The notes under the pieces were generated by a model. It saw only the letters and a program-made list of their open reading frames with translations. It had not been told where the DNA came from and did no database searches. Shown piece by piece: positions 32,636 to 53,152 of a stretch of 64,000 nt of DNA (positions are counted from its first letter, which is position 1; every line of letters starts with the position of its first letter). This DNA comes from a virus: positions 34,434-98,433 of IMG/VR virus record IMGVR_UViG_3300008113_000071. One strand, given 5' to 3'. The translations under genes and the position numbers were made by a program.

Positions 32636-35600
32636 ATGAATGTTGGATGCTCTGCAATTCCTTGTCCTATAATATTAAATTCCACCTGCGTTATATACGA
32701 GGGTGGTAATCTTATATATACAGGAATTAATACTAACGATACTATCCAAACAGCTCTACAAAAGATAGATGCTGTTATTGGAGATATTGCTGTTGGTACC
32801 TCAGGTACTGCAGGCACTAGTGGTACCACTGGAACTTCAGGTTCTAGTGGAACAGCAGGTACATCAGGTGATGATGGTATATCTAGTGGTAGGGTTTTCT
32901 ACTTCAATGAATCTCAAGTATCTAGTGTAGCACCATATAAGGTGTTATCAACAACCCCTTCTGGAGGACCTGAACAAGTTGTTCCTGCTGTAACAAGTGG
33001 GAGCACTCCTGTTCTAGTTGCTGAATTCATAACAGAACAATTAAATGTTATTACTGTTCCTGCAGGTATACAAAGATTCTTCTTACACTTCTTAAAGAGT
33101 GCACAAACAGATATTGTTAATACATATGTAGAAATTATATTAGCTGATGTTAATGGTATTCCTATTTCTCCAGCTTTTACAACAAACGTTGCTTCTGTTG
33201 GATGGGTAGATGCTGTCACTCCTGTAGAGATTCCTGTTGATATTGTTATTCCTTCATCACCTGTATCTACATCAGATAAAGCAATTGTTAAAATATATAT
33301 TACAGATGATGTTGCTGGTGCATACAATGTTAATTTCTATACAGAAGGTGCTGCCAACTATTCATATGCTGTAACAACTATTGCTACACTGTCAGGAACT
33401 AGTGGCACATCAGGAAGCTCTGGCACTTCTGGTATAGCAGGAACTAGTGGTACCTCTGGTATTGCTGGTACTTCTGGGACATCAGGTATTGCTGGCACCT
33501 CAGGTACTTCTGGTATAAATGGTACAAGTGGAATCAATGGAACCTCTGGGTCTTCAGGCACTGGAGGTACAGATGGTACTAGTGGTTCTTCAGGATCATC
33601 AGGTACAAGTTCTACAGGTGGTACTTCTGGTACAAATGGAACAGGAGGAACTAGTGGTACTGATGGTAGCAATGGTACATCAGGAAGTTCAGGAACTGCA
33701 GGTTCACATGGTACTTCTGGTACTAGCTCAACAGGTGGTACTAGTGGAACTTCAGGCACAACTGGAACCAGTGGTACTGATGGAACCAGTGGAACTACAG
33801 GTACTAGTGGAACGAGTGGTTTAGATGGTACAAGTGGATCTGATGGATCTAATGGTACCTCAGGCAGCAGTGGAACTGATGGCACTTCTGGAACAGATGG
33901 TTCAAGTGGTACAAGTGGAACTGCAGGTAGCAATGGAACTAGTGGCACTGATGGTACATCAGGCACAAGTGCTCTTGATGGCACAAATGGAACTAGTGGT
34001 ACAACAGGAACTAGTGGAACAGCTGGATCAGGTGGTACATCTGGCTCCTCTGGAACAAGTGGTACATCAGGTTCTACTGGTGACTTATATGCTACAACAT
34101 CCTCTACATCTTATACATTACAAGCAGCAGGTAATCCTGGAACTATAACAGTAGGACTAGGACTTGCATATACTCCTGCTCAATCTATTATTATTGCATA
34201 CAATGCTTTAAATCACAATGAAGCAATTGTAACATCATATAATGCAGGCACTGGAAGTTTAAGCTTCACTACAACTTCATTAACAGGATCTGGAACTTAC
34301 ACAGCATGGGATGTCAATCTTGATGGTGCTACAGGGGGTGATGGATCAAGTGGAACCTCTGGAACCACAGGAACATCTGGCTCTAGTGGTGTAAGTGGAA
34401 CTTCTGGCACTACAGGTACTTCTGGTACAACAGGTAGTTCAGGAACTTCAGTAACTGTATCAGGAACTAATAATACTGTTGTTAAATTCACAAGTGCATC
34501 CACTATTGGTAATTCAAATATTACTGATACAGGTACACTTATTTCATTAGGTTCTAATACAACTATTTCAAGTGGAGCATTAGGTATAGGTACGAGTGCA
34601 TTAACTGATACTGCTTTAAGGGTAGGGAAAGGAATAACTGGTAGCACTACACCTGCTGGTATTCAAGTTACTTCTGCAATACAAAATGATGCTACTTCAA
34701 GTGCGATAATTTTTCAATCAACTCCATCACAAGCTGCTGGTGGAACACTTACAACATTATATCATTTTGCTGCAAGTCAATCTACACTTAGTGGAACTGT
34801 AACTACACAAATAGGTTATCAGGTATTTGCAAGTGTTAGTGGTGCTACAAACAATCGTGCTTTTCAAGGTCAATTAGCTGCTGCTGCAAATACACATAAC
34901 TTGTATATGTCAGGTACAGCTGATAACTATGTGGCAGGTGCTTTGGGTATAGGTACTACATCTTTAACAGGTTATAGTTTAAGAGTAGCTAAAACTCTAA
35001 CAGGTGCTACTACAGCTTATGGTATTCTTAATTCAGGACAAATACAATCTGATGTTACTGCAAATGCTATTTATAATAGAACATTAGCTTCTACTGCTGC
35101 TGCTTCATTTACATTAGCAAATCTATATCATTATTTTGCAGACCAAAGCACATTTGGTGCAGGTTCATCTGTTACAAATCAATTTGGATTTTATGTAGAT
35201 AGTGGATTAACAGGTGCAACTAATGATTATGGTTTTTATGGCAACTTAGCATCTTCTGCAAATGTTTGGAACTTGTACATGAATGGCACTGCATCTAATT
35301 ATCTAAGTGGTGTTTTAACTATTGGTACAAACTCTCCAAATGCATCTGCAAAACTACAAGTAGATAGTACAACAAGTGGTTTCTTGCCACCAAGAATGAC
35401 AGAAGCACAAAAGAATGCTATAGCTTCTCCTGCCACTGGATTAATAATTTATCAAACAGATGCTAGTGCAGGTCCTTATTACTATAATGGTTCAGCTTGG
35501 ATTCAAAATGTATCAGGTACATCAGGTACCTCAGGAGTAAATGGGACTTCTGGAACTTCTGGTACCACAGGTACAAGTGGCACAACTGGAACCAGTGGTA

Positions 35601-36973
35601 CTACAGGAACCTCAGGGACCTCTGGTATCAATGGTACATCTGGCACTAGTGGAATAAATGGTACAAGTGGTACAACAGGCACAAGTGGGACTAGTGGTGT
35701 AAATGGCACTAGTGGAACATCAGGAATCAATGGTACTTCTGGAGTTAATGGAACCTCAGGAACTAGTGGGGTGAATGGTACTAGTGGAGTGAATGGAACA
35801 TCAGGATCTTCTGGTATTAATGGCACTAATGGAACTTCTGGAATCAATGGTACGTCAGGTATAAATGGTACAAATGGAACCAGTGGTATTAATGGTACTA
35901 ATGGAACGTCAGGAATTAATGGAACCAATGGTACTTCTGGTATCAATGGAACAAGTGGTACTAATGGAACAGGTGGTACAAGTGGTACCTCTGTAACTGT
36001 ATCAGGTACAACAAACTATGTTGTTAAGTTTACAAGTGCTTCTACAATTGGTAACTCAAATATTACAGACAGTGGAACACTTGTTAGTTCTGCTGTAAAT
36101 ACAAGTATAACAGGAAGTTTACAAGCTGGAGATGCTTCAGTATTAGGTGCTGTTTCTTTTGGAGATACCCCCACCACAATCATAGGCAAAACTACAGGAG
36201 CTATATTAGATTTAAGAAATACTAATACAGTAATTGCTGCAGGAGATTTAGCAGGTAGTATTCAATACACTGTTAAAGATGATACAACAGCAGGGTATTG
36301 TGTATCAAAAATAGATACAATAACATTAGCTGCAGCAGGTACTGGTAATAGTGGTGGTGGTATTATGAGATTCTTCACTAATCCAGGAGGAATGAGTGCA
36401 GTTCCACTTGAGAGAATGCGTATTACAGCAGCTGGTAATATTCAGATTGGTTCTGCAACTGGTTTCTTTGTAGCCTCTAAATTACAAGTTACTGGAGACA
36501 TATGTGTAAGCTCTGGAAGTAGAATTTTACTTGATTCCTCTGCTAGTACATTAAGTATAAAGAGTAGTACATCAGGAGCTGGTGGTGATATGGAATTTTA
36601 CACTGGTGGTAGTTCTTCAACTAGTATTCGTGTAAAAATTGCTGCTGATGGTGCTGTAGCTATATACAATACATTTAATAGACAAACTGCTTCTTATACA
36701 CTTGTTCTTGGAGATGCTGGTAAAATAGTTGAGATGAATGTTGCAGGAGCTAACAATTTAACTGTACCTTTGAACTCAAGCGTTGCATTCACTATTGGAA
36801 CTGAAATTCAAGTATTACAATATGGTGCAGGTCAAACTACTATTGTAGCTACTGGTGGTGTAACATTGAGGAGTAAGTCAGGTCAATTAAAAATTGGTAA
36901 CCAATACACAGGTGTAACGCTTGTTAAAGTTGGTACTGACGAATGGTATGTAATTGGTAATTTAACTGCATAA
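32636..36973 (+). CDS. Collagen-like (Gly-Thr-Ser) tail fibre
   Basis: A 1445-residue protein. Its first ~50 residues match the N-terminal module of the previous gene (Cys pair, V-I-Y-E-G, TGI, KIDAVI). Long Gly-x-y runs follow, mostly GTS, at residues ~55-80, 252-480, 567-606 and 960-1120. Between them are beta-rich domains, including two tandem copies of a ~120-residue module (about 34578-34940 and 34941-35310). A GFLPPRMT...GLIIYQTD stretch near 35380-35460 is of a kind common in Bacteroidota phage fibres. The C-terminal ~110 residues resemble a fibre tip. The likely role is receptor binding. The Thr/Ser-rich Gly-x-y runs are good candidates for glycosylation by the neighbouring transferase. 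Confidence 0.85.
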   Translation: MNVGCSAIPCPIILNSTCVIYEGGNLIYTGINTNDTIQTALQKIDAVIGDIAVGTSGTAGTSGTTGTSGSSGTAGTSGDDGISSGRVFYFNESQVSSVAPYKVLSTTPSGGPEQVVPAVTSGSTPVLVAEFITEQLNVITVPAGIQRFFLHFLKSAQTDIVNTYVEIILADVNGIPISPAFTTNVASVGWVDAVTPVEIPVDIVIPSSPVSTSDKAIVKIYITDDVAGAYNVNFYTEGAANYSYAVTTIATLSGTSGTSGSSGTSGIAGTSGTSGIAGTSGTSGIAGTSGTSGINGTSGINGTSGSSGTGGTDGTSGSSGSSGTSSTGGTSGTNGTGGTSGTDGSNGTSGSSGTAGSHGTSGTSSTGGTSGTSGTTGTSGTDGTSGTTGTSGTSGLDGTSGSDGSNGTSGSSGTDGTSGTDGSSGTSGTAGSNGTSGTDGTSGTSALDGTNGTSGTTGTSGTAGSGGTSGSSGTSGTSGSTGDLYATTSSTSYTLQAAGNPGTITVGLGLAYTPAQSIIIAYNALNHNEAIVTSYNAGTGSLSFTTTSLTGSGTYTAWDVNLDGATGGDGSSGTSGTTGTSGSSGVSGTSGTTGTSGTTGSSGTSVTVSGTNNTVVKFTSASTIGNSNITDTGTLISLGSNTTISSGALGIGTSALTDTALRVGKGITGSTTPAGIQVTSAIQNDATSSAIIFQSTPSQAAGGTLTTLYHFAASQSTLSGTVTTQIGYQVFASVSGATNNRAFQGQLAAAANTHNLYMSGTADNYVAGALGIGTTSLTGYSLRVAKTLTGATTAYGILNSGQIQSDVTANAIYNRTLASTAAASFTLANLYHYFADQSTFGAGSSVTNQFGFYVDSGLTGATNDYGFYGNLASSANVWNLYMNGTASNYLSGVLTIGTNSPNASAKLQVDSTTSGFLPPRMTEAQKNAIASPATGLIIYQTDASAGPYYYNGSAWIQNVSGTSGTSGVNGTSGTSGTTGTSGTTGTSGTTGTSGTSGINGTSGTSGINGTSGTTGTSGTSGVNGTSGTSGINGTSGVNGTSGTSGVNGTSGVNGTSGSSGINGTNGTSGINGTSGINGTNGTSGINGTNGTSGINGTNGTSGINGTSGTNGTGGTSGTSVTVSGTTNYVVKFTSASTIGNSNITDSGTLVSSAVNTSITGSLQAGDASVLGAVSFGDTPTTIIGKTTGAILDLRNTNTVIAAGDLAGSIQYTVKDDTTAGYCVSKIDTITLAAAGTGNSGGGIMRFFTNPGGMSAVPLERMRITAAGNIQIGSATGFFVASKLQVTGDICVSSGSRILLDSSASTLSIKSSTSGAGGDMEFYTGGSSSTSIRVKIAADGAVAIYNTFNRQTASYTLVLGDAGKIVEMNVAGANNLTVPLNSSVAFTIGTEIQVLQYGAGQTTIVATGGVTLRSKSGQLKIGNQYTGVTLVKVGTDEWYVIGNLTA
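33391..34080 (+). repeat. Collagen-like Gly-x-y repeat region (main block)
   Basis: About 230 residues with glycine at nearly every third position and Thr-Ser filling most x-y positions, with Ile-Ala, Ile-Asn and Asp-Gly variants. Codons vary freely (GGT/GGA/GGC, AGT/TCA/TCT, ACT/ACA/ACC), so the DNA is far less repetitive than the protein. Further blocks lie at 32799-32878, 34333-34450 and 35512-35990. Confidence 0.9.
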
Positions 36974-37383: not shown

Positions 37384-39483
37384 TTAACCTATCATTTCAG
37401 AATTAATTTTATCTATAACCATTTGTGATGTAATACTAGTCTGACATTCAAATTGTCTATCAGTTCCTTTATTAACAGGACACCAATTCCAATCTCCCCT
37501 ATCAAACTTATACTGAGGATCATTCCAACATCCATGACATACACTTGTGTTCGTCACTCTAATGCATTCAAACTCGTGATCTGCTTGAGTAAAATTGCTT
37601 ATCATCACAACTTCTTTTCTAAGTGCCCAAGCTAACCAGCTTAACCCACTAGATAAGCCTACAAAGAACTTACTATAATAGATAAGGTTCATTGTATTCT
37701 CTATCGACTTATCCTCTGGCACTAGACAGTTATCAAATGGGTTATCCTCTAATGATACATTCACTATCTTATATCCTTTCTTGTGATAATGATTGATTAA
37801 CTCCTGCCACGACTCTCTTGTCCAGAACTTACATCCTGCAGTTGAATTGGTGGCTATGGTGATGTAATTATCGTATGGCCTCTTACTTGGACTGAAACTG
37901 ATTCTAGGAACGACTTCCCGATATTGGAGTCCCAAAATGTTTGTGGCTGCTTTCTGTAATGGAATAGTGTTAGGTAGCTCTGGTTCCTTATTGCTATCAT
38001 AGAACCATCCTAAAGTGTACATACCCATAATGTTCTGCACATTAGTTCCTGGTTCTACAAACTCTAATTCTGGATACACATCCTGGAATAAGTTATTCCT
38101 GAAGGTAGATACTATTACATGGCAATTGTGTTTCTGCTTGAACTCCAAACAATAAGGTATCCACGCTATTGTGTCTCCCAAGGACTTGCTGTCAAACGCA
38201 ATGTATACACGCTTTCCTGTGTAGTCTAACGTGCTTTCATACACAAGCTCATCATTCTCTCTTACAGTTACATTCCATTTGGTGTAATAGCTCCTGTTGA
38301 GTCTCACCCAACTGTTACACGCAATATTGTTCTGGTAATGTAGCTCTCCAGACTCATCATAAAACCTCACATTAAAAATGCTTTCTGAGCTCCCTTTGAT
38401 TTCTAAGAAGGGTTGTCCTACGCAATAGTTGGTGATTGTTATAGGCTGCTTGTATGGTGCAGCTTTGCACACAGCTCTGTACATTTCGTCATGCAATTTT
38501 GCAAATTCCTCTTCTTGCCCTTCAGGTATTTCATATTGCATAGGTTCATCAAGAGCTTTTATTAATTGAGCCTTTAGATTGTTTTCGTCTATTGGTGTAA
38601 TGTATTCATCAAACATTCCACAGTATTGTGGTAGGTTGCGTGCTAATATTTTACAGCCATAACTAACAGCTTCTCTAACAACAAGAGGATTACATTCCCA
38701 TGTGCTATTGAACATGAATACATCTGAAGCTAACATAAACTTCCACGCATCCTCTCTCTCTCCCCACACCTTACAATTAGCTGGTAGGTCTGCCATGATT
38801 GGTTCCCAATATTCTTGGAAGTTAACAGCTTGGTTTCCTACAAAATGGAATTGTACATCAGGCATTCTTCTAGCTATTTCTACAGCTTCTTTCTGATTCT
38901 TTCCTGGTGTCCATAGTCCAACGTTTACAACATGTTCTTTGGCTTCATCAAATTCTAATTCTGTAAATGCATCCTGCCAATTATATGTCTGACGTTTGTC
39001 TTCAATTGGAAACTCCAATACATATTTAGGAGATTGCATGTTAGCAAATGTCTGCAAATGATATGGTGTACAGAAAGCATATGCATCTGGATGATAACGT
39101 TTGCTCTGGTCTGGATTAAACCAAACATTGTGACAGGTTTCTACTATTCTCCAAGTTCTGTCTGGTGCATACAAAGCTCTCATCAGCTCCTCAGGAACTT
39201 GATTGTGGCTATCGAATCCTTCAATCATTTCATCAACATGCACAACATCAATATGCAAATCTTGAATGACATCTATTAACATCATCTTGTCTGTTCCAAG
39301 TGTAATCACTTGTGTTAGCTTGTTAATCTTGTTCTTCTGAACAACATACTCAGAGCTATAGTTCTTGAACTCCACTACATATACATCAGCATCTGTGTAC
39401 TTCTGTAGTGTCTCAATTCTCTTTAGTAAAAATGCAGGCATCCCTCCTGTCGAAAGATGTGGGGCTAAGAATAGTATTTTCAT
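37384..39483 (-). CDS. Bifunctional glycosyltransferase: GT4-like domain fused to Aah/TibC-like O-heptosyltransferase
   Basis: Start set at the ATG at 39481-39483 (699 residues). It begins MKILFLAPHLSTGG, typical of GT-B enzymes, and lies 5 bases after a promoter box. Residues 1-380 look GT4-like, with an NVGLWTPGKNQ motif followed by a W-E-C-N-P-L-V-V-R-E-A segment. Residues from about 445 begin KRVYIAFDSKSLGDTIAW, as in heptosyltransferases (GT9-like). The tail has Cys649, Cys652, Cys668 and Cys680 in a CHGCWND...DWNWCP...FEC context, the hallmark of autotransporter O-heptosyltransferases (Aah/TibC), which bind iron there and modify Ser residues. I infer protein O-glycosylation with extension by the first domain. 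It lies on the opposite strand directly after the Thr/Ser-rich fibre genes. Confidence 0.8.
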   Translation of the reverse strand: MKILFLAPHLSTGGMPAFLLKRIETLQKYTDADVYVVEFKNYSSEYVVQKNKINKLTQVITLGTDKMMLIDVIQDLHIDVVHVDEMIEGFDSHNQVPEELMRALYAPDRTWRIVETCHNVWFNPDQSKRYHPDAYAFCTPYHLQTFANMQSPKYVLEFPIEDKRQTYNWQDAFTELEFDEAKEHVVNVGLWTPGKNQKEAVEIARRMPDVQFHFVGNQAVNFQEYWEPIMADLPANCKVWGEREDAWKFMLASDVFMFNSTWECNPLVVREAVSYGCKILARNLPQYCGMFDEYITPIDENNLKAQLIKALDEPMQYEIPEGQEEEFAKLHDEMYRAVCKAAPYKQPITITNYCVGQPFLEIKGSSESIFNVRFYDESGELHYQNNIACNSWVRLNRSYYTKWNVTVRENDELVYESTLDYTGKRVYIAFDSKSLGDTIAWIPYCLEFKQKHNCHVIVSTFRNNLFQDVYPELEFVEPGTNVQNIMGMYTLGWFYDSNKEPELPNTIPLQKAATNILGLQYREVVPRISFSPSKRPYDNYITIATNSTAGCKFWTRESWQELINHYHKKGYKIVNVSLEDNPFDNCLVPEDKSIENTMNLIYYSKFFVGLSSGLSWLAWALRKEVVMISNFTQADHEFECIRVTNTSVCHGCWNDPQYKFDRGDWNWCPVNKGTDRQFECQTSITSQMVIDKINSEMIG

Positions 39484-39488
39484 ATAGA

Positions 39489-39519
39489 CAAATGTAAAAA
39501 AACATTTGCAAATCTCAAA
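39489..39519 (-). promoter_or_regulatory. Bacteroidota-type promoter for the glycosyltransferase
   Basis: Read on the minus strand: TTTG (39516-39519), a 19-base spacer, then TACATTTG (39489-39496), a full match to the consensus. The start codon at 39481-39483 is only 5 bases further, so the message should be leaderless or nearly so. Confidence 0.8.
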
Positions 39520-39536
39520 ACTATTAATTACATTTG
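39505..39536 (+). promoter_or_regulatory. Divergent Bacteroidota-type promoter for the envelope cassette
   Basis: TTTG at 39505-39508, a 20-base spacer, then TACATTTG at 39529-39536. It interleaves with the minus-strand promoter at 39489-39519. The first clear gene downstream starts at 39649, leaving a leader of about 105 bases. Confidence 0.7.
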
Positions 39537-39648
39537 TATGCAGAACTGACCACAGGTACAACCAACTACCTAACGCTACTAGTTCTTTGTAGCAATAGTT
39601 CATGTATTATTATTGTAATTATAATTTTTTTCTTAGAATTAATAGCAA

Positions 39649-39978
39649 ATGGCTACAAACGAATCTGTTGCTAACAGCATCAAGATATGGGCATTCCCTA
39701 CATTGGTGACATGTCTGTCTGTAATGATATGGACTGACGTTAGAGAAATCCAGAGTGATGTAAAACATCTCATGGCTGAATCTAATATTAGTGGAACAAA
39801 AATTGAAGGAGTTGAAGCTCGTGTTAACAAGCTTGAACAAGTTGTGTTCTTAGACAAACTTGCTAAAACTTCTGATGAACCAAAAAAAGAAACCAACCAA
39901 CAACAAGTTCTTGTAGCTGTGCTCAAGAATGATGACCAAGATAATAATGGTAAAAAGAAACAATTATTAAACTTTTAA
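39649..39978 (+). CDS. Small membrane protein with coiled coil
   Basis: A 109-residue protein with a membrane segment at about residues 12-28, then a coiled-coil stretch (about 30-70) and a charged Lys/Gln-rich tail. The layout (N-terminal anchor plus coiled coil) is common among phage lysis accessory and holin-like proteins. It opens the cassette behind the divergent promoter. Function is not proven. Confidence 0.6.
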   Translation: MATNESVANSIKIWAFPTLVTCLSVMIWTDVREIQSDVKHLMAESNISGTKIEGVEARVNKLEQVVFLDKLAKTSDEPKKETNQQQVLVAVLKNDDQDNNGKKKQLLNF

Positions 39979-39980
39979 TT

Positions 39981-40109
39981 ATGGCAACATTTCATGAAGC
40001 ATTCTGGTGGTTTGGTGTAACACTGTTTACAGCAGGTTTAATTCTATTTTATGGCACTTTAATTTATGCTGTCTTTGCACATTTAAAAGGATTAGTAACC
40101 AACAAATAA
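39981..40109 (+). CDS. Very small single-span membrane protein
   Basis: A 42-residue protein (ATG at 39981, stop at 40107-40109) with one strongly hydrophobic span of about 25 residues. It starts 2 bases after the previous stop and is followed after 7 bases by the next gene, so it is part of the same operon. A lysis or envelope role is suggested by context only. Confidence 0.6.
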   Translation: MATFHEAFWWFGVTLFTAGLILFYGTLIYAVFAHLKGLVTNK

Positions 40110-40116
40110 AACCACA

Positions 40117-40725
40117 ATGAAAAGAAACCTTCTATTTTTTGTATTAGCTGCACTCCTAGTTTATCTAGCTTTAGATAAGGTGGGAATAATTGGTGGCTAT
40201 GATGTTAAAACTCCAGACACAACTATCGTAAGAGATACTGTGTGGCATGAAACTAGCAAAACTGTTGTAAGAGAAATACAACAGGTTGGTGGTGATGAGG
40301 GATATGTTCCTCCTGGTGAAGATATGTATATAGCTGTTGACAGTTATGACTCTCTTCTAAACAAGTTCAATGTATTAGTAAAAGAATTAACAGCTCGTAA
40401 GTTCTACAAAGATAGCTTACAGCTAGACTCAATAGGATATATTGTTGTGAAAGACACTGTGCAATTTAATAGCTTACAGAAAAGATCCTATAATTATTTC
40501 TACAAGGTGCCACATGTCACAGAAACTATGACAATCACCAAGTATGCTCCACCTACTAGACAACTGTTTATTGGTGCTGGTTTAGGTAAGAGTGATTTCC
40601 AAGCTGGGTTCTTGTACAAAACAAGAAAGGATTTATTGTTTGGGGCTTATGTTGCTCCACCATTGCAAGGAGTTCCATTACAGTTTGGTGTACAAGCTTA
40701 TTGGAAAATTAAACTGAAAAAATAA
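40117..40725 (+). CDS. Membrane-anchored envelope protein, possible spanin-like
   Basis: A 202-residue protein with an N-terminal signal anchor (about residues 4-24). A soluble region follows with repeated D-T-V/D-S strings, and the last ~50 residues are beta-rich, beginning QLFIGAGLG, as in small outer-membrane-like strands. An inner anchor plus a periplasmic body would suit a spanin or envelope-bridging role near the lysis genes. The stop overlaps the next start (TAATG). No firm family call. Confidence 0.5.
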   Translation: MKRNLLFFVLAALLVYLALDKVGIIGGYDVKTPDTTIVRDTVWHETSKTVVREIQQVGGDEGYVPPGEDMYIAVDSYDSLLNKFNVLVKELTARKFYKDSLQLDSIGYIVVKDTVQFNSLQKRSYNYFYKVPHVTETMTITKYAPPTRQLFIGAGLGKSDFQAGFLYKTRKDLLFGAYVAPPLQGVPLQFGVQAYWKIKLKK

Positions 40726-41207
40726 TGAAATATCTTTTCATACTGTTATTCTTGATGTTGTCTGTGTCTGCAAAGTCACAGACTTCGTTGCATCTAGACA
40801 GTGTTGAAAACAAAATTAAAATAGGTAAGATGGCTGGTAACAGAAATCTTGCATTTGGAATAAAGAATATTCTTGAGGAATATCTTCAGGAAAAAGAAAT
40901 AGACTTGACTGATAAAGCAAGTCAATCATTAAAAGTGGAGATCATCTTCTTAGATGTACTCACAACCTCTGGAAACTTATCAGTATTCCATAAGAGTGAA
41001 GCCAAAGTTGTTATTAGACTTAAAGGATTCATCATTGATAGAACCAACAACCAAATATTAAAATCAGCAATAGCAGAACAAAGTGCTAGTGAGATTTCTA
41101 TGTCAACTCTGGTTGTGGACACTGGGGGAAAACTAAACCAACAGAATCTTAGTATCGCTATTAAAAAGTCCTGTGACAAACTTGTTACATCACTATTAAA
41201 GCAATAA
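40725..41207 (+). CDS. Secreted CsgG-like (small) protein
   Basis: A 160-residue protein with a classical signal peptide (MKYLFILLFLMLSVSAKSQ) and no lipobox Cys. The mature part alternates strand and helix: LKVEIIFLDV, then VVIRLKGFIIDRTNNQIL, then a C-terminal helix ending CDKLVTSLLKQ. That layout recalls CsgG/YajG-type outer-membrane assembly proteins, though the protein is shorter than CsgG. It may pair with the larger CsgG-like gene at 44505. The family call is moderate. Confidence 0.45.
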   Translation: MKYLFILLFLMLSVSAKSQTSLHLDSVENKIKIGKMAGNRNLAFGIKNILEEYLQEKEIDLTDKASQSLKVEIIFLDVLTTSGNLSVFHKSEAKVVIRLKGFIIDRTNNQILKSAIAEQSASEISMSTLVVDTGGKLNQQNLSIAIKKSCDKLVTSLLKQ

Positions 41208-42938
41208 ATGAGAAAACTGTACATCATGTTAGCTTTTGTCTTATTAGGCATGAGCTCTTTCGCACAAACACTAAAGTTTAAAATTACAGAAGCTGAGACA
41301 CGCACTAATGTTAATGGGAGTCCTATTAATAAAGGTGATGAGTTCGAGATTTCTATCTGGGTTAATCCAAATGGAAACACCACCACACGTTCATTGTATT
41401 TTGATTTCGAATATCAGAATACAGCATTTGATTTGATGAGTGTTAATCACACTGGTACAAATGGAAATGGTGGAGCTCTTCCAACTGGCTCAAGTATATC
41501 TATGAACTATCAGGACTATCCTGGATACTCATGGTTATCTACACAACAGAACAGCAGTGTAGATGGTAATGTTAAATATAACAATGCTAACTATACTTAT
41601 ACTCCAGGAGGACCTAAGTCTATCCTTCGTGTATATCTAAACTGGGCTACCAACAATACTAACTTTGCTGAGTGGCATTTAATTAAACTACGTTTTAAAT
41701 TAAAAACAGATGCTCCTGGCTACACTTGGGATCCTATCAAGTTTAACTTCGTTGCTGCATTCAACCAAAATGGAACAAGTGGTTCTACAATCATGGAGAT
41801 TCCTGAAACTACAATCATCTATTTGGATCCTGTAGCTACGTCATATATCAATGGTACAATAGAACTAAATAGCAACTTGCAAGCTATTTCACCTATCAAG
41901 GTGGCATTCGTTGATAGTGCTCTTAACCAGGGACCAATATTTGATGTTGCATCTAATGGTAAGATAAATATTGACCAATCACAACTGAAAGCTAACACTA
42001 CATATAAGGTGATGGCTATGGTTAATATGGATAAGCTGTATGATATATACAATGCTGGTGTTACAGTGAGTGATTATACCACAGCAGAAGGTGAGTTCAT
42101 TACACAGAACCTTGATGGTACATTCAAAAATAGTAACATCAAAACTGGTATGGGCTATTTTGCAGCTGATATTAATCGTAACAAAAAATTAGATGGGGGG
42201 GACCTTACAAAATTGTTCTCTCAGACTGTTAGTGTAGATCAATTAGTTCTTCTTCCATCACAATACACTCCTGGTTCTGGTGGACATATGAGTGTAATGA
42301 CACTTGAGAAGAGTGTATTCAATGGTCTTGATACAGAGAGCTGGAAAACTGCACTACCACATGTATTGTTTAGAACAGGAAATATTGGTACTAACCTACC
42401 ACTAGATCTTAAGTATGCATTAATTGGTGACATTAATAGATCACATAGCTCACAAGTTGTGGATGCTCAAGGAGTTATTAAGGTGAATAGTTTCATCAAT
42501 ACACCAAACCCAATACAAGGAATCAATGTATCCTTAAATAACTTAGTAATCACATCAAACGATATCGAAATCCCAATAGCTCTATCAACAGGAAACATTT
42601 CTATTAGTGGATTACAGTTTGAGTTTATATATGATGCTACTAAGATAAAGTTTGATCAACTATTAAGCTCACTACCTAATGGTTGGGTGGTATTTGGTAC
42701 TCCTGTGAATGGTAAGATTAAGTTTGGAGCTGTTGATAAAGAATTAAAGGTTCCTGTAAATGGTGACATAGTTCCATTCAAACTGAAGTTCACTTCTTTA
42801 GTTCCTGGTGTGGACCTTGCTACACAAGTTAAGGTTGGATCTATTATGGATGCATCAGATAACAAAGGAAAACAAGTTGGTATCAATTTAAACACTACAA
42901 CAATTAAATTAACTGGTTACAACAAATTTAACAACTAA
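41208..42938 (+). CDS. Secreted cohesin/dockerin-like protein
   Basis: A 576-residue protein with a signal peptide (about 1-20). Residues ~22-200 and ~440-570 have the beta-sandwich layout of cohesin-like domains, the second clearly so, with an ISGLQFEFIYDATKIKF strand pair. Two calcium-loop-like segments are visible: D321-I-N-R-N-K-K-L-D329-G-G-D332 and D408-I-N-R-S-H-S. They resemble dockerin half-sites but lie about 87 residues apart instead of about 24. A run of seven G (42195-42201) codes part of the first loop. It would be exported to the periplasm or surface and bind protein or glycan partners. Such a gene is unexpected in a phage. Confidence 0.6.
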   Translation: MRKLYIMLAFVLLGMSSFAQTLKFKITEAETRTNVNGSPINKGDEFEISIWVNPNGNTTTRSLYFDFEYQNTAFDLMSVNHTGTNGNGGALPTGSSISMNYQDYPGYSWLSTQQNSSVDGNVKYNNANYTYTPGGPKSILRVYLNWATNNTNFAEWHLIKLRFKLKTDAPGYTWDPIKFNFVAAFNQNGTSGSTIMEIPETTIIYLDPVATSYINGTIELNSNLQAISPIKVAFVDSALNQGPIFDVASNGKINIDQSQLKANTTYKVMAMVNMDKLYDIYNAGVTVSDYTTAEGEFITQNLDGTFKNSNIKTGMGYFAADINRNKKLDGGDLTKLFSQTVSVDQLVLLPSQYTPGSGGHMSVMTLEKSVFNGLDTESWKTALPHVLFRTGNIGTNLPLDLKYALIGDINRSHSSQVVDAQGVIKVNSFINTPNPIQGINVSLNNLVITSNDIEIPIALSTGNISISGLQFEFIYDATKIKFDQLLSSLPNGWVVFGTPVNGKIKFGAVDKELKVPVNGDIVPFKLKFTSLVPGVDLATQVKVGSIMDASDNKGKQVGINLNTTTIKLTGYNKFNN

Positions 42939-42940
42939 TA

Positions 42941-43312
42941 ATGAAGAAGATTATATTCATCCTGGCAGTAATTACATTATCTATTGGTTCTTGCAGAAAG
43001 ACTGATGTAGTTCCTACAACTAAACCTTCTATCATTGACCTTGGTAAACATTCAGACTCAATGAGTTATAATGATTTTCCAAGACTAAACAATGGCACAT
43101 TATCAATTAACCTTAACGTAACTCCTGGATCTAAATACTCAATTCAATTAAACAACTTCAATGGTGAAGAAGTTATCACTAAAGGATTGAGTGCTGATTC
43201 TACTAATGAGATAGTAACGTTAGACGTTAGCAAATTAACACCTGGCTTCTATGATATTTCAATCCTAGATGTTACTGGTGGCGAGATTAAGAGTCCAATA
43301 ATAATTCACTAA
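42941..43312 (+). CDS. Small lipoprotein
   Basis: A 123-residue protein with a lipoprotein signal (hydrophobic core then LSIGSC, Cys at about residue 18). The mature part is beta-rich and ends like a small Ig-type or T9SS-sorting-domain fold (TPGFYDISILDVTGGEI). It starts 2 bases after the cohesin-like gene. It would be anchored in the outer membrane and may dock the secreted neighbour or act in exclusion; both are inferences. Confidence 0.65.
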   Translation: MKKIIFILAVITLSIGSCRKTDVVPTTKPSIIDLGKHSDSMSYNDFPRLNNGTLSINLNVTPGSKYSIQLNNFNGEEVITKGLSADSTNEIVTLDVSKLTPGFYDISILDVTGGEIKSPIIIH

Positions 43313-43323
43313 AATATACAATC

Positions 43324-43623
43324 ATGTCAGAAGAAAACGAAGAAGGAACATTTAGCAGTATAAAAAAAACTGTGTTAGGTACCTTGGCTACTGTTATAAC
43401 AGCAGGTGGTGCATGGTTAGGATCAACATTGTTTGGTGGTGGAAGCGAAGAAGCTGCTAGCCCAGCTGCTGCTCCTGCTCCTGTAATTAACATCACTAAT
43501 ACACAAACTCAGCAACAATCTACTGCTGGGGGTAAGACTGTTATTATTAAAGAACCTGCAAAACCTGCAGCTCCTAAAAAGAAAACTGAGAAGGAACAGC
43601 TTGAAGAAGCTCCTGCTTGGTAA
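43324..43623 (+). CDS. Small membrane protein with Pro/Ala/Lys tail
   Basis: A 99-residue protein with one hydrophobic span (about residues 16-38), then a Gly-Ser/Ala-Pro linker, a Gln-rich stretch and a Lys/Pro tail. It lies directly before the holin-like gene. Possibly a lysis accessory or wall-spanning protein. No family recognised. Confidence 0.55.
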   Translation: MSEENEEGTFSSIKKTVLGTLATVITAGGAWLGSTLFGGGSEEAASPAAAPAPVINITNTQTQQQSTAGGKTVIIKEPAKPAAPKKKTEKEQLEEAPAW

Positions 43624-43648
43624 TTATTAACCCCTATATCTATATATT

Positions 43649-43903
43649 ATGAAATTAAAAGACCTATTTAACGACAAGAATGACATCAATGAGAAATCAG
43701 TAATTGGTTTCTTAGCATTCATTATTATGACTGTATTTGCTATTGCAGATATTGTTACTGGCTATCTTGGTAAAGACCTTGTAGTTAATGAATTTATTTT
43801 TAATGCATTCCTTGTACTTGTATTGGGAACATTTGGTATCTCTGGTGTAGAGAAAATTATGAATCGTAAAACTGAGGCTGAGTCTCAAGAAGAAGAAAAC
43901 TAA
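43649..43903 (+). CDS. Holin-like protein
   Basis: An 84-residue protein with two membrane segments (about 18-38 and 48-66), a short N-terminal charged region and an acidic C-terminal tail. It sits 2 bases before the endolysin-like gene, the usual holin-endolysin arrangement. I infer that it makes the inner-membrane lesion at lysis. Confidence 0.65.
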   Translation: MKLKDLFNDKNDINEKSVIGFLAFIIMTVFAIADIVTGYLGKDLVVNEFIFNAFLVLVLGTFGISGVEKIMNRKTEAESQEEEN

Positions 43904-43905
43904 TC

Positions 43906-44505
43906 ATGGCAAAATATTCAAAAGATAAAATTCAAGCAGCTCTTAAAGCTAAGGGCTATGTATTCTTTGAGGATGCAGCTAACAAAGGTTTAGATTTAAA
44001 CATTGTTGGTGTTCGTAACTCAGACACTGGTAAGAAAGTAACTAACGCATTTGATGATGTTATCACTGTATCATATAAAAAAGATGGTGCATGGGTATAT
44101 CATGAGTGGGCTAACACTACTGATCCAGGTAAGAAAGGTGTTGAACAGTTCCACAATGCTAAAGGTGTTGCACGTTTAGTACCTGGTCAATATCGCAGTT
44201 CTCACACATTAGGATTACACCAAGGAAAATATCAATGCTTAAAGCAATTGAATCCTGTGAAAGTATATCGTGATGCTAACAAAGATGCAACTTATGATGA
44301 AACTAAAATCGATACTGGAGTATTTGGTATCAACATTCATAAGGCTGGTGTTGATTCTACTTACGTAGAGAACTGGTCTGAAGGATGTCAAGTGTTTAAA
44401 CGTATTGCAGACTTTGATGAGTTTATGAAGATTGCAAATGCTGCTTCTAAAATTCATGGTAACAAATTTACTTATACATTAATCGAGTCTAAAGACATCG
44501 TATAA
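43906..44505 (+). CDS. Endolysin-like peptidoglycan-active protein (L,D-transpeptidase-like motif)
   Basis: A 199-residue protein without a signal peptide. Residues H145 and S158-E-G-C161-Q-V resemble the H...(S/T)xGC(V/I) catalytic pair of YkuD/L,D-transpeptidase-fold enzymes. Similar GINIH...WSxGCQVF strings occur in Bacteroidota phage lysis proteins, as far as I recall. The expected action is cutting of wall cross-links at lysis, released by the holin-like protein just upstream. The stop overlaps the next start (TAATG). Confidence 0.65.
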   Translation: MAKYSKDKIQAALKAKGYVFFEDAANKGLDLNIVGVRNSDTGKKVTNAFDDVITVSYKKDGAWVYHEWANTTDPGKKGVEQFHNAKGVARLVPGQYRSSHTLGLHQGKYQCLKQLNPVKVYRDANKDATYDETKIDTGVFGINIHKAGVDSTYVENWSEGCQVFKRIADFDEFMKIANAASKIHGNKFTYTLIESKDIV

Positions 44506-45218
44506 TGAAATACCTATTAACTAGTATATTACTAGTTCTTTCCTTTACATTATCAGCTCAAGTAGCCTCTGTGAAAACAGAGAGCTACAAGGCTGATTTT
44601 GAAAAGAAGGAAGACTTTAGTGCATTGTTTGATTATTCAGGCAAGACTATTCCTGTTCAGATCCTTTCCTTAGGAATCTCTGAAGAGGTGTATGCTATGT
44701 ATCCTGAGTTAAAAGACAAACGTGTTGGGCTTGGTGTAACTAACATCGTTATTGAGTTCCTTGAGGAATCAAATAGATTTACGTTCACTGAAGAGAAAGC
44801 TGAGATTAAAAACAGAATGGTTAAACAATTCCAGGCTTCTAAGGCTGGCATCTCAGAAAACCAACTGGATGGTAAGGGCAAGATTAAGCTTGCTAATTAC
44901 TTTGTTTACATCGAAGTGTATGATTTTTCTGTATCTGTTGATGAGGAAATCAGAGTGAAGGATGGAATAAAAGAAACAATGGTTACTAGACTTGGCTTAC
45001 AGGTTAGATTTGTTAATGCTGAAACTGGTGAGTATTTAACTGGTTCAGGATTGGGCGAAGCTAAAACTGTTAAAGAAGCTACATTAATGAATGATGAGAA
45101 CTTGAGTGAAATCAAATTCAATCAATCAACCATTGGTACCACAACTAAGAAAGCGTTAGAGATTGCTGCTGGAAAGATTGTACAACGTATGATCAAAAAA
45201 GGCATCTTTCCTAACTAA
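44505..45218 (+). CDS. CsgG-like outer-membrane secretion protein
   Basis: A 237-residue protein with a signal peptide (about 1-19, ending SAQ). The mature part follows the CsgG order: GLGVTNIVIEFLEES early, a basic helix with Gln, ANYFVYIEVYDFS in the middle, LQVRFVNAETGEYL, then ALEIAAGKIVQRM near the end. CsgG forms the outer-membrane pore that exports curli. This copy lacks the N-terminal lipid Cys, so any pore would be unlipidated. It is coupled by TAATG overlaps to both the endolysin-like gene and the following barrel gene, so it may act in lysis, export or exclusion. Confidence 0.6.
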   Translation: MKYLLTSILLVLSFTLSAQVASVKTESYKADFEKKEDFSALFDYSGKTIPVQILSLGISEEVYAMYPELKDKRVGLGVTNIVIEFLEESNRFTFTEEKAEIKNRMVKQFQASKAGISENQLDGKGKIKLANYFVYIEVYDFSVSVDEEIRVKDGIKETMVTRLGLQVRFVNAETGEYLTGSGLGEAKTVKEATLMNDENLSEIKFNQSTIGTTTKKALEIAAGKIVQRMIKKGIFPN

Positions 45219-46531
45219 TGAAAAGACTATTACTACTATTATTTATATTGATTGGGACTAGTGCAAAGGCACAAGTTCTTACAACTACATTTGTTGATCC
45301 CTGTACCAAGGAAGTAAAACTAATCACAGTTCCTCTTGTAGGAAGTACAACTGTTGCACTCTATAATAAGACTAAAACATTTACAGCTGCTGATGTTACA
45401 TCTGGTGCTTTGTATCAGTGGATAGCTGATGCCTATCTTGCATGGAGTTCTAGAAACCCATGTTCAACTGGTCAAGCTGCAACCACAGCTACACAAGTGG
45501 CTGCTAATACAGTGAGTTCTGTTGTTGCTGGAGCTATAAGTGTTCCTCCTCCACCACCTCCTCCTGTAGCTCCTCCACCTCCTGCACCTGGTCCAGCACC
45601 TGCTAATTCTCCTCCTCCTCCTCCACAAGGGGGTGGTGATCCTCCTCCTGCTAATGGTGGAGGTGGTAGTGAACAAGGTCCTGCTCCTAAGAGTGAATCA
45701 AAGTCTGAATCAAAGTCTGAAGGTGGTGGTGAAAGTTCTTCTTCAGGAGAATCTAAGTCAGAATCCAAGAGTGAATCTAAGAGCTCATCAAAGAGTTCTA
45801 AGTCTGATAGTAAAGCAAAAGCTAAGGCTGCTGCTAAAGCTGCAAAGGTTGCTAACCCAATGTTGTTAGCTAGTGACTTAACAGCTGGACAAAACTTAGA
45901 TGGATCTATACAAGCTATTGCTTCATTTGGTTTATCACAATCCTCTATGGCTGGAGATGAATCCTGGGGAGTAACATCAATGATTTGGACAAACTTGAAT
46001 CAGTTTGCATTCAATGGTAGATATACCAAGATGGGTTTTGTTGATGGGAAACTTAAATATATAAACAACTTCTCTTACACCTGGGCTTATAGCTATGGTA
46101 CAAAGATGGGAGTGTTGGGATTTGCACACATTAGACCATTAGATAAATGGGGTGTGACTGGCTTTAACCTATCACAAATTGTGATTGGTATTCCTCATCA
46201 GTTTGGTGTAGATACATTAGGTGAGGCTGTGTATGTTAATCAATCAGCACTGCTTTATTCAATTACAGCATTCTACACTAAACCAATAACACTATCTAAA
46301 AGGATCAACATATCTCCAGAGATGTACATAACATGTAATCCATATATGTACCTCACTAGAGACCACTTACCAATAAGGGATTATACATTAAACTTCCTTT
46401 CAGGAGTGAGTGGAGATGTATCAATAACTAAAAGATTTAAATTAAGCACTAGCCTAAAAGCTAGTTTTAGTACAAATAAACAAATACCAATTCTATTCAA
46501 CGTCCTTATAGGATCTAAAATCAATCTTTAA
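45218..46531 (+). CDS. Secreted protein with Pro-rich and Ser/Lys linkers and C-terminal outer-membrane barrel
   Basis: A 437-residue protein with a signal peptide (about 1-19), a ~90-residue globular part and a Pro-rich stretch (about 108-148). A highly charged Ser/Lys/Glu linker follows (about 155-205), then ~230 residues of alternating aromatic beta strands ending in a hydrophobic terminal strand, as in outer-membrane barrels. The Pro-rich and charged linkers could cross the periplasm and wall. It is translationally coupled to the CsgG-like gene. I infer an outer-membrane partner of that protein or an outer-membrane disruptor. No specific family recognised. Confidence 0.6.
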   Translation: MKRLLLLLFILIGTSAKAQVLTTTFVDPCTKEVKLITVPLVGSTTVALYNKTKTFTAADVTSGALYQWIADAYLAWSSRNPCSTGQAATTATQVAANTVSSVVAGAISVPPPPPPPVAPPPPAPGPAPANSPPPPPQGGGDPPPANGGGGSEQGPAPKSESKSESKSEGGGESSSSGESKSESKSESKSSSKSSKSDSKAKAKAAAKAAKVANPMLLASDLTAGQNLDGSIQAIASFGLSQSSMAGDESWGVTSMIWTNLNQFAFNGRYTKMGFVDGKLKYINNFSYTWAYSYGTKMGVLGFAHIRPLDKWGVTGFNLSQIVIGIPHQFGVDTLGEAVYVNQSALLYSITAFYTKPITLSKRINISPEMYITCNPYMYLTRDHLPIRDYTLNFLSGVSGDVSITKRFKLSTSLKASFSTNKQIPILFNVLIGSKINL

Positions 46532-46533
46532 TT

Positions 46534-46668
46534 ATGGCAAAGAAAACCACATTATCAAAAAACTCTTCTCAAAAAGTATCATTTGGTAAACGTAGAGAAG
46601 GAAAACATGCTAAAACTATAAACAAGCATGCATCACCTAGTTCTAAATATAGAGGACAAGGAAAATAA
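46534..46668 (+). CDS. Tiny basic protein
   Basis: A 44-residue, Lys/Arg/His-rich protein (ATG at 46534, 2 bases after the previous stop). The start MAKKTTLSKN and the end KYRGQGK resemble other small basic proteins of Bacteroidota phages. It may bind nucleic acid. It is the last gene before a weak terminator-like hairpin. Confidence 0.55.
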   Translation: MAKKTTLSKNSSQKVSFGKRREGKHAKTINKHASPSSKYRGQGK

Positions 46669-48287: not shown

Positions 48288-49313
48288 ATGAAGAGAGAAC
48301 TCAGATTTATCTGTGCTCAACCAGATGATACCTACTACACATGGCAGGTACATTTATGGCTTGAAAGCTTAAAAAAGCTTGGACACTCAGACAAAGCAAC
48401 CATCCTAGTTTACACTCCTGGATTCAGAGAGAAGAATACTAAGTGGGATCAGATTGTAAACCTCTATCCTGAATCAGAATTTGTATTCTATAAGGATGAA
48501 GAAAACGCAATTACAAACTATCTAGGGATTTACATTCCCATATTAAGACCTTATTGTCTTACTAGATACTTTAGTGATAACCCTGATATGCAGGACAAAG
48601 CTGTGTTCTATTGTGACTCAGATGTTATCTTCACAGAGAATTTTAACGTTGATAAATACATCGATGATGATGTAAACTATCTGTCTGATACAAACAGTTA
48701 CATAAACGCTTCATATTTTGATAGTAAAGAACGAGATGTTCTTCCAGATAGACTGGATAGGTACAAAGAGAGAGATATTCTTGGTGAGTTAGCTGAGAAG
48801 ATTGGAATCTCTAGAGAGATAGCTGAAGCTAATAACGAACATTCTGGAGGAGCACAATATCTCCTTAAGAACGTTAATGCTGAGTTCTGGAGTAGAGTGA
48901 CTACAAGTTGTATCATTATACGTACAGAATTACAAGCTGTTAATAAAGAGTTCTTCGAAAGTGAGAACGCAGGTTTCCAAAGCTGGTGTGCAGATATGTG
49001 GGCTGTGTTATGGAACCTATGGAGAAACGAAGCTGAAACTAGAAACATTCCTGAACTAGAGTTCTCTTGGAGCTCTGATCAGATTGATAAACTAAAAAGA
49101 ACAGGCATCTTACACAATGCAGGGATCACAGATCAAAATATGGGTGGAGCTTATCCAGCTTTCTATAAAGGAAGCTACCATATGGGTAAAGACCCTTTTG
49201 AGGATCCTCATTTACAAGTGGTGTTGAATAGTGAGATCACTAAGAAATACTGCAACCACTATTATGCATCTCAATTAATGGAATTAAAAGAGAAGTATAA
49301 TCTTAATTATTAA
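48288..49313 (+). CDS. GT-A type glycosyltransferase
   Basis: A 341-residue soluble protein. The opening (RFICAQPDDTYYTWQVHLWLESLKK) and the acidic motif Y-C-D110-S-D112-V-I-F fit a GT-A, metal-dependent transferase. The early YxxWQ string recalls plant peptidyl-serine and hydroxyproline glycosyltransferases, but only as a weak resemblance. It lies among three genes with poly-Thr tails (48117, 49408, 49641), which makes those tails its most obvious candidate substrates. The substrate sugar cannot be read from the sequence. Confidence 0.65.
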   Translation: MKRELRFICAQPDDTYYTWQVHLWLESLKKLGHSDKATILVYTPGFREKNTKWDQIVNLYPESEFVFYKDEENAITNYLGIYIPILRPYCLTRYFSDNPDMQDKAVFYCDSDVIFTENFNVDKYIDDDVNYLSDTNSYINASYFDSKERDVLPDRLDRYKERDILGELAEKIGISREIAEANNEHSGGAQYLLKNVNAEFWSRVTTSCIIIRTELQAVNKEFFESENAGFQSWCADMWAVLWNLWRNEAETRNIPELEFSWSSDQIDKLKRTGILHNAGITDQNMGGAYPAFYKGSYHMGKDPFEDPHLQVVLNSEITKKYCNHYYASQLMELKEKYNLNY

Positions 49314-51200: not shown

Positions 51201-51397
51201 TCTTCGAACCTACAAATAGGTTAGAAGTTACAACTCCAAAAGGTGATGGTGTAGTGTGGTTGGTTACTGACTATGGTCATGAAACAGATACCATCTACAC
51301 CATTATCATTGATGCTACAGGAGAACTGTGGCAATTCGCACATAAAGACATTATTGTTAAACCCAATATAACATTCAGAAGAAATGGCAAAACTTAA
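51197..51397 (+). CDS. Small hypothetical protein
   Basis: A 66-residue beta-rich protein starting in an ATGA overlap. It differs from its Lys-rich neighbours in being near neutral. No family recognised. It overlaps the next gene by 14 bases. Confidence 0.55.
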   Translation: MIFEPTNRLEVTTPKGDGVVWLVTDYGHETDTIYTIIIDATGELWQFAHKDIIVKPNITFRRNGKT

Positions 51398-52097
51398 AAA
51401 GCCTTCCTTAAAAAAAGCCCAAGGTGGTATCTCTGTTTCTCAGGATAAAAAAGGGAACTACTATTATACTAAAAAAGTAACCACTAAAAATGGTCCTAGA
51501 TACTATCAAGGTGTTTCTCCAGATTATAATATGGCAGAGTCAGAAGCTAACTTTAAAGCTAAACGTATGCCTCAAGATTCAACTCGCAAAGCTACTCTCC
51601 TTCCTTATGAATTAAAGAAGATGGATGAGAAGAAAAAGGGTGGTGTTATAAAAAAGAAAATGGGTGGAGCTATTAAAAAGATGCAGACTGGTGGTAAAAT
51701 TGAAGAACAATATCAGAAACAGAAAAAGGTAACATCTAAACAAGCTGAAATGGATAAGATTAAAACTGCTTATCCTAAAACCACTTTAAAGAAAGCTCAG
51801 AATGGTGCAGCTACTAGAGATAGTACAAAGTTTTATCAAGATAAACTTAAAGGTTTATCAACAACTTCTCGAAAATGGTCTGCAGCTATGAATATAATTA
51901 ATTCAAACAAGAAGGATGAAAATTTTGCAGAAAGACAAAAAACTAAATATGATCTTTTAAGACAATATAGAAAAGGTAGATCTGGGTTTGATGCAAATGG
52001 TAATCCTTTAAAGAAAAATAAAACAGGTGGTGTTGTTAAGAAAACTATAAAACCTGTAGCAAAAAAGATTGTTAAATCTATTAAAAAGAAAAAATAA
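51384..52097 (+). CDS. Lys-rich protein with repeated KxxQxG motifs
   Basis: A 237-residue, very basic protein. It carries KKAQGG (about residue 11), KKMQTGG (about 97) and KKAQNG (about 137), plus related KTGG and KKGG strings. The motif is shared with the structural proteins at 6206 and 8514 and with the genes at 52097 and 53172. A ~40-residue aromatic part (NYYYTKK...RYYQGVSPDYN) is the only globular-looking part. I infer an internal virion or DNA-packing protein, possibly processed at the motifs. Confidence 0.6.
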   Translation: MAKLKKPSLKKAQGGISVSQDKKGNYYYTKKVTTKNGPRYYQGVSPDYNMAESEANFKAKRMPQDSTRKATLLPYELKKMDEKKKGGVIKKKMGGAIKKMQTGGKIEEQYQKQKKVTSKQAEMDKIKTAYPKTTLKKAQNGAATRDSTKFYQDKLKGLSTTSRKWSAAMNIINSNKKDENFAERQKTKYDLLRQYRKGRSGFDANGNPLKKNKTGGVVKKTIKPVAKKIVKSIKKKK

Positions 52098-52477
52098 TGG
52101 CAAAGATTAAAAAAATGCAAGCTGGTGGTGTAACCAAATCAGCAAAACGTGTAGGACCTGTTGATCCTAATGGTGCTTGGACTAAAGTACAAGAGCGTAC
52201 CATTGCTGGTGCAAAAGCTCCTAAAGTTGCTTTAGTAAAGGATAAAGAACTTGATGCTTCTGCTGCTGAAAGAAAACAAGCAGGTGCTAAGATGAAAAAT
52301 GGTGGTAAAGCTAAACTTGGTTCAGGTGCACGCTTTGCAGCTCTTAAATCTAAGATTCAATCAAAAGGTAAATCAGCTAAAGCTGCTGGTGCTATTGCTG
52401 CATCTATAGGTCGTAAGAAATATGGTGCTAAGAAAATGACAGCTATGGCTGTAGCTGGTCGCAAGAAAGCTAAGTAA
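52097..52477 (+). CDS. Small basic protein with KKMQAGG motif
   Basis: A 126-residue basic protein starting in a TAATG overlap. It opens MAKIKKMQAGG and contains a second GG site (KMKNGG). The C-terminal half (GARFAALKSKI... then AIAASIGRKKYG... AVAGRKK) resembles a small conserved phage protein that I have seen in many genomes, function unknown. It is probably a virion or DNA-binding component. Confidence 0.6.
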   Translation: MAKIKKMQAGGVTKSAKRVGPVDPNGAWTKVQERTIAGAKAPKVALVKDKELDASAAERKQAGAKMKNGGKAKLGSGARFAALKSKIQSKGKSAKAAGAIAASIGRKKYGAKKMTAMAVAGRKKAK

Positions 52478-52479
52478 TA

Positions 52480-52908
52480 ATGGCTACTGTTAAGAAACCT
52501 AAAAAGATTGGTCCTGGACCATACAACCCACAGAAAGCTGTTGCTTATGTAGGTAAAGGTGTTCTTAGAAATGGTGATACTATTCCTGCTATTAAAGGAG
52601 CAATCACTCCTGTACCTAATGGTCCTCTAATTAAAAAGAAAGGTCCATTCAAAGGATCCACACTTAAGAAAGGTGGAACTGTTGTAAAGGTTGGGGGACA
52701 AACACATAAAGTGTTTAAGAATAAAAAAGGTAATGTAGTTGTTGATCATACAGCTGGTATACCTGCTGGTAAATGGGACAAGATTAACTTAACTAAGAAA
52801 GCTAAGGCTAAAACTGTTAAACAAGGTGTTGCTTCTGTAAAGAAATGGCACAAAGATAATCCTGATTATTATGGCAAAAAGTCCAGCGTGGCAAAGAAAA
52901 GAAGGTAA
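52480..52908 (+). CDS. Small basic protein
   Basis: A 142-residue, Lys/Gly-rich protein ending KKSSVAKKRR. A short beta region (VVKVGGQTHKVFKNKKGNVVVDH) sits in the middle. It starts 2 bases after the previous stop and overlaps the next gene by 38 bases. No enzyme motif. Possibly DNA-binding. Confidence 0.55.
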   Translation: MATVKKPKKIGPGPYNPQKAVAYVGKGVLRNGDTIPAIKGAITPVPNGPLIKKKGPFKGSTLKKGGTVVKVGGQTHKVFKNKKGNVVVDHTAGIPAGKWDKINLTKKAKAKTVKQGVASVKKWHKDNPDYYGKKSSVAKKRR

Positions 52909-53152
52909 AAATCCTTCTGGTGGTTTAAATGCTAAGGGAGTAGCTTCATATAGAAAAGCTAATCCTGGATCTAAACTTAAAACTGCTGTCACCACTAAAC
53001 CCTCTAAACTTAAAGCTGGCAGTAAAGCTGCAAGTAGACGTAAGTCTTTTTGTAGTAGAATGTCAGGGATGAAAAAGAAATTAACTTCTGCTAAGACAGC
53101 TAATGATCCAAACAGCAGAATTAATAAGTCTCTTCGTAAATGGAACTGTTAA
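52871..53152 (+). CDS. DUF6321-like small protein
   Basis: A 93-residue basic protein opening MAKSPAWQRKEGKNPSGGLN, then a Ser/Lys-rich middle and the end SLRKWNC. This order (SPAWQRxEGKxxxGGLNxKG... LRxW) is that of a widespread small phage protein family, DUF6321 as I recall, of unknown function. The 38-base overlap with the previous gene is unusually long for this region. Confidence 0.65.
   Translation: MAKSPAWQRKEGKNPSGGLNAKGVASYRKANPGSKLKTAVTTKPSKLKAGSKAASRRKSFCSRMSGMKKKLTSAKTANDPNSRINKSLRKWNC

Follow-up and report, generated by a model that had tools for sequence, protein, structure and literature searches.

A 64-kb stretch of DNA from a Bacteroidota phage (hereafter the window; positions 34,434 to 98,433 of the 98,433-base IMG/VR record IMGVR_UViG_3300008113_000071) contains an array of twelve + strand genes (39649-46668) that is best explained as two units joined in one operon: a lysis unit, consisting of a holin-like protein (c3), a spanin candidate (c8) and a putative endolysin, and a phage-specific envelope module of exported proteins organised around c1, a protein of predicted CsgG fold. 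The core of this module comprises five genes, c0, c5, c1, c4 and c2. Each unit is also encountered by itself: the cultured Flavobacterium phage immuto (host Flavobacterium sp. LMO8) has the module with no lysis enzyme close by, and other phages have the lysis unit but not the module. Within the array the genes are tightly packed: neighbours are separated by -1 to +25 bases, and stop and start codons overlap as TAATG at three junctions (40725, 44505 and 45218). An earlier note on this DNA, made from the letters alone, had described such TAATG coupling, and the open reading frames (ORFs) it named lie at the coordinates it gave, on the + strand.

With c1 as the sole bait, one scan of IMG/VR recovered 242 relatives and another at least 489 contigs; profiles of the neighbouring genes were built on the first 80 loci and then searched in 165. 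These 165 loci contain c4 in 161 cases, c0 and c5 in 157 each, c2 in 143 and c3 in 109. All 108 loci that have sufficient flank encode c0, c5, c1 and c4 on a single strand within 6 kb, an arrangement conserved far beyond chance; the full five-gene module, with c2, is present in 105 of the same 108, and it is also intact in loci outside the profile training set. Two main gene orders are seen: c0-c5-c1-c4-c2 (46 loci) and c2-c0-c7-c5-c1-c4 (40 loci). When c2 was used as the bait (one relative from a single-sequence scan, 514 from an alignment-based search), c0 and c5 were present in 39/39 loci with flank, while c2 loci without c1 stop about where c1 would be expected and so were not scored against the module. 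In one relative (L060), genes resembling GIY-YIG homing endonucleases are inserted within the cassette at 4462-5058 and 8186-8785.

Comparison with the packaging and capsid genes indicates that the module passes between unrelated phage lineages. Across 59 pairs of phages whose terminases lack BLASTP similarity, which leaves room for remote homology, the c1 proteins are 52-89% identical (median 61). The window c1 itself shares about 74% identity with its counterparts in L058, L059 and L046, and by the same measure the terminases of these three have no relation to that of the window. The major capsid protein (MCP), large terminase subunit (TerL) and portal of the window phage were named from PHROGs: its MCP family recurs in 3 of the 24 long c1-carrying records and its TerL family in 3/12 c1-carrying records, and the Terminase_6N family is found in 15 of the 24 long records, none of them the three with window-type proteins. 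A recent bacterial source was sought and none was found: a c1 profile search of 395 Bacteroidia genomes matched a single, already-known metagenome-assembled genome, the 394 others being without c1, and a c2 search of 299 genomes of the Flavobacterium family again matched that genome alone, leaving 298 others without c2.

The most conserved member of the module, c1 (44505-45218), has a signal peptide, and its AlphaFold2 model (25 sequences, predicted local distance difference test score 72.3) displays helices and three long strands in the CsgG order. In a Foldseek search of this model against the PDB, CsgG chains occupied the first 18 rows (best E 1.3e-8). VIA-align likewise returned the non-lipidated pre-pore form of CsgG as the best PDB match (Z 11.4, root-mean-square deviation 4.0 over 156 residues), with the curli complex at Z 11.2, FlgT, PelC and LptE lower at Z 8 to 9.4 and TraT at Z 6.8. 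Sequence profiles were silent, that of c1 matching no PDB chain and that of c2 retrieving nothing useful from the PDB. We therefore regard c1 as firmly CsgG-like on the strength of its predicted structure, and c2 (40725-41207), which aligns to c1 in profile-profile comparison by hhalign (87% probability, E 4.1e-6), more weakly as a CsgG-like, distant paralogue. The signal peptides of both window proteins are without Cys and without a lipobox, so that the two CsgG-like proteins lacking a lipobox in the earlier note are borne out, one by fold and the other by its alignment to the first. A broader statement, that lipidation is absent throughout the c1 family, had to be abandoned, since about 30 of 160 c1 relatives possess a lipobox. 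Strands 132-151 and 154-171 of c1 are predicted to be long enough for a membrane hairpin.

Among the exported proteins, Pfam gave useful matches for c0 and c7 only. The secreted c0 (41208-42938) scores 22.9 bits against Pfam Cohesin, just below the cut-off of 24.1, and its relatives exceed that cut-off (L086 with 36.8 bits, immuto_15 with 36.6); a dockerin-like D-x-N-x-(N/D) loop is visible in the alignment, in keeping with the cohesin/dockerin-like protein that had been called at this position. Fused forms of c0 (L014, L086 and immuto_15) carry at the C-terminus a Por_Secre_tail match, the sorting domain of type IX secretion, with a score that exceeds the Pfam cut-off. This domain is absent from the window c0 and is found on the adjacent c7 (42941-43312), the lipoprotein of the earlier note, with 27.0 bits, exactly at the cut-off of 27. 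Across 133 loci the sorting domain is fused to c0 without c7 in 78, an unfused c0 is accompanied by c7 in 51, none has both and four have neither; three of these four encode two other small lipoproteins instead, as in L048. Thus, c7 resembles a sorting domain that has become detached from c0, and the mutual exclusion of the fused domain and a c7 gene (78/51/0) indicates that c0 and c7 act together. A lipobox is present in 53/57 c7 proteins, and acidic residues prevail after the lipid Cys in 24 of 35 distinct sequences. Acidic residues in this position resemble the surface-export signals of Bacteroidota; in the window c7 (CRKTDV) a single acidic residue is accompanied by two basic ones. In immuto c0 is divided otherwise (immuto_14 and immuto_15) and a C-type lectin protein is added, and additional c0-type genes with C-type lectin domains are also encountered.

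The two remaining core proteins are each predicted to bear a long arm. In c4 (45218-46531) a signal peptide and a small Cys-containing N-terminal domain are followed by a long, low-complexity linker rich in Pro, Ser and Lys and by a barrel-like C-terminal domain; its profile drew only low-complexity matches from the PDB. The Pro-rich linker reported previously is therefore present, whereas the outer-membrane barrel reported with it is a matter of sequence character, as seen in the alignment. c5 (43324-43623) is a membrane protein with an N-terminal hydrophobic helix, a long Pro/Lys/Glu tail and a C-terminal Trp that is invariant in the alignment.

Turning to the lysis unit, c8 (40117-40725) is modelled with an inner-membrane helix at 2-21 (1-28 by hydropathy), a beta-rich middle of long strands and four C-terminal strands. 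Its structural matches among the viral models of BFVD include phage proteins of the DUF6808 family (E 2.9e-6); the C-terminal sheet also resembles barrel subunits of the trimeric autotransporters AtaA and Hia, at Z scores (5.0 and 4.5) that are weak and within noise. As a bait, c8 has a known lysis enzyme nearby in 30/37 loci. Fourteen of the 37 are without c1; of these fourteen one is cut at its edge and seven have GH19, several in the order holin-like c3, c8, GH19. Such an arrangement, here apart from the module, suits a spanin, and c8 reads as a candidate for the one-piece kind. It would share with spanins and DUF6808 proteins an inner-membrane helix, outer-membrane-type C-terminal strands and a place beside a holin-like gene and an endolysin, and would differ from spanins in that the C-terminal strands replace a lipoprotein or a second transmembrane (TM) helix. 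The earlier note had seen no obvious classical spanin pair and had suggested that the exported proteins might replace spanins; it missed this candidate, and replacement is not supported, as the window has a spanin-like gene of its own, which elsewhere joins a holin-like gene and GH19 without the module, and in immuto the module lies about 8 kb from a lysozyme-like gene. The endolysin of the earlier note is supported by PHROGs: the product of 43906-44505 matches phrog_3000 (5e-35, function unknown) and an endolysin PHROG (7e-8), the sole addition of that database to the Pfam annotations of the array. The holin of that note corresponds to the two-TM c3 (43649-43903), a call made from two hydrophobic segments. 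The window is without the GH19 endolysin gene that many relatives have elsewhere in the array, and has this other endolysin between c3 and c1. A further family, c9 (e.g. L018:6053-6649 and L067:7947-8501), was considered as an endolysin and rejected as a two-TM protein; it is holin-like with a D-x-D-x-D-G calcium-loop-like tail, is interleaved among c5, c1 and c4 in many relatives, and may belong to the module instead of acting as a holin.

What, then, does the module do? We tentatively favour, at slightly below an even chance, the display or export of phage proteins at the surface of the infected cell, because the module is exported and built on a CsgG-type protein, and because its variable component c0 bears surface-sorting and adhesin-type domains; most parts of the module are accounted for in this way. 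The earlier proposal that these genes export something or coat the cell surface is accordingly the best-supported one, though they may instead help to open the outer membrane. The fuller version of this reading, which we hold somewhat more tentatively still, is a phage-specific, non-curli system for export and surface display that has a ring of CsgG fold at its core, is exchanged whole among unrelated Bacteroidota phages, is often built into the lysis operon, and serves either to cover the infected cell with an adhesin of the phage or to open the outer membrane. In such a system c1 would oligomerise into a CsgG-type ring, its paralogue c2 lying on the periplasmic face, and would form an outer-membrane channel or provide the seat for one. 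c4 would sit in the outer membrane as a barrel and extend a long arm into the periplasm, c5 would span from the inner membrane, and together they would hold the complex across the envelope. c0 would reach the cell surface through the type IX secretion system (T9SS) of the host if a sorting domain is present, otherwise possibly through the c1 channel, and either a sorting domain of its own or the c7 lipoprotein would then keep it in place. The resulting phage-coded, adhesin-like coat might benefit the phage by blocking superinfection, or by making cells and debris sticky.

Several points weigh against surface display. The export substrate and the surface location are ones that we infer, and the barrel of c4 and the topology of c5 are read from sequence alone. 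Insertion of c1 into the outer membrane can be called possible and not more, because a conserved acidic run (S-E-D-E) breaks the first hairpin strand in the model and the second hairpin is of low confidence. A holin-like gene or known endolysin lies within 6 kb in 97/108 loci, and c5, c1 and c4 have holin-like genes in between them, which suggests a tie to lysis. Superinfection exclusion would be expected early and leaves the placement in a lysis operon unexplained; aggregation at release, or true opening of the outer membrane, would fit that placement better.

The interleaving with lysis genes feeds the strongest alternative, an accessory lysis device. At the close of infection the outer membrane would be weakened or opened by the CsgG-like ring together with c4 and c5, with assistance from the spanin-like c8; the cohesin-like protein would serve to loosen surface layers or to aid the exit of virions. 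Besides the proximity of the lysis genes, it draws on the long arms of c5, with its membrane helix, and of the barrel-like c4, and on the lysis-timing role proposed for the CsgG of the OM43 phage Melnitz (PMC9004378). We nevertheless judge it less likely than display: the holin-like/spanin-like/GH19 unit occurs without the module, the module of immuto is situated 8.4 kb from the lysozyme-like gene and beside nucleotide-metabolism genes, and a surface-targeted, adhesin-type c0 with lectin paralogues has no obvious role in lysis. An outer-membrane channel for the uptake of nutrients or cofactors during infection, as raised for the CsgG of SAR11 phages (PMC7029224, PMC9599517), is improbable, as it leaves unexplained c0, c5 and c4, the three genes that accompany c1 in all loci of sufficient flank. 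Equally hard to credit is that c0, c7 and their partners belong to the virion and are exported, or become trapped, in the course of assembly: the array of the window does adjoin tail-fibre-like genes, but c0, c1, c2, c4 and c7 all have a signal peptide or lipobox and the immuto module sits among DNA-metabolism genes. Least probable of all is that the module produces amyloid fibres by type VIII secretion, as curli systems do, for despite the fold of c1 and the full curli operons of HTVC023P-type phages (PMC9599517), 0 of 25 c1 family members match Pfam CsgG at E values up to 10, and neither PHROGs nor Pfam provides a match to a CsgA/B curli subunit, CsgE or CsgF among the cassette proteins.

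Phage-borne CsgG has precedents. Pelagimyophages carry CsgG and CsgF, for which 'sibling capture' or uptake has been guessed (PMC7029224); podophages of the HTVC023P type have a fuller curli operon with cross-family transfer (PMC9599517); and for the CsgG of Melnitz a role as pinholin or gated secretin has been suggested (PMC9004378). The module described here resembles these in combining a phage-borne secretion protein of CsgG fold with exported partners and in moving between phage families. However, whereas those phages have recognisable curli genes of alphaproteobacterial type with CsgF and partly CsgA/B, c1 has no curli partner that we could find: its partners are cohesin/dockerin-like, T9SS-sorted, barrel-like and membrane proteins, and c1 was found in phages only. 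Thus, the module works like the phage CsgG modules, yet by the tests made is not a curli system. From E. coli CsgG, its best PDB match in fold, c1 differs in its low identity (12-16%), in the missing lipobox (for the window protein), in the missing Pfam match and in its uncertain membrane hairpins. In the literature searched, we found no paper on a Bacteroidota version of the phage CsgG module. A candidate that may work similarly in exclusion is TraT, the surface-exclusion lipoprotein of F plasmids (PMC11733297, PMC12658005). Like the ring proposed here it is an outer-membrane ring coded by a mobile element, and it matches c1 weakly in structure, though a Z score under 8 may reflect a common arrangement alone. 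We know of no c0-type partner of TraT. With T9SS cargo of Bacteroidota the module shares the Por_Secre_tail domain on c7 and on c0 relatives, the difference being that in the window this domain sits on a separate lipoprotein.

The remaining genes of the array are small. c11 (39649-39978), which often opens the array and is common to 20 loci, has one hydrophobic segment and a helical tail, and no useful family match in PHROGs or Pfam. It is followed by a 42-aa hydrophobic peptide (39981-40109; hydrophobic segment 10-39), of which a scan for relatives saw none. The array ends with the small basic protein c10 (46534-46668), which lies within the array in relatives (30 loci). Several sugar-related genes flanking the module have sequences like those of glycosyltransferases, fucosyltransferases and methyltransferases (37384-39603, 48288-49313 and 54134-56179). 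Elsewhere in the window, for which megablast against phage records gave no match, a single ORF of 4145 aa and then one of 1679 aa (14430-26867) lie upstream of the tail genes, and a tail-type protein (32636-36973) has long collagen-like GTSGTSG runs, with poly-Thr linkers in its neighbours. In most of seven proteins encoded at 6206-14430 and 51384-53861 an [AM]-Q-x-G motif, often in the form K-(A/M)-Q-x-G-G, is enriched (16 observed versus about 2 expected from shuffles), and may mark where virion proteins are processed.

In phages of Bacteroidota, the genes for lysis and for exclusion are poorly known. An exported module of five genes that recurs in hundreds of phage contigs from unrelated lineages must serve a valuable role at the envelope, and it provides a second, different system in which to ask why phages carry CsgG; c8 in turn suggests a proposed type of spanin with a beta-strand outer-membrane anchor. 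As the module is carried, unnamed, by the cultured phage immuto, it is open to experiment.

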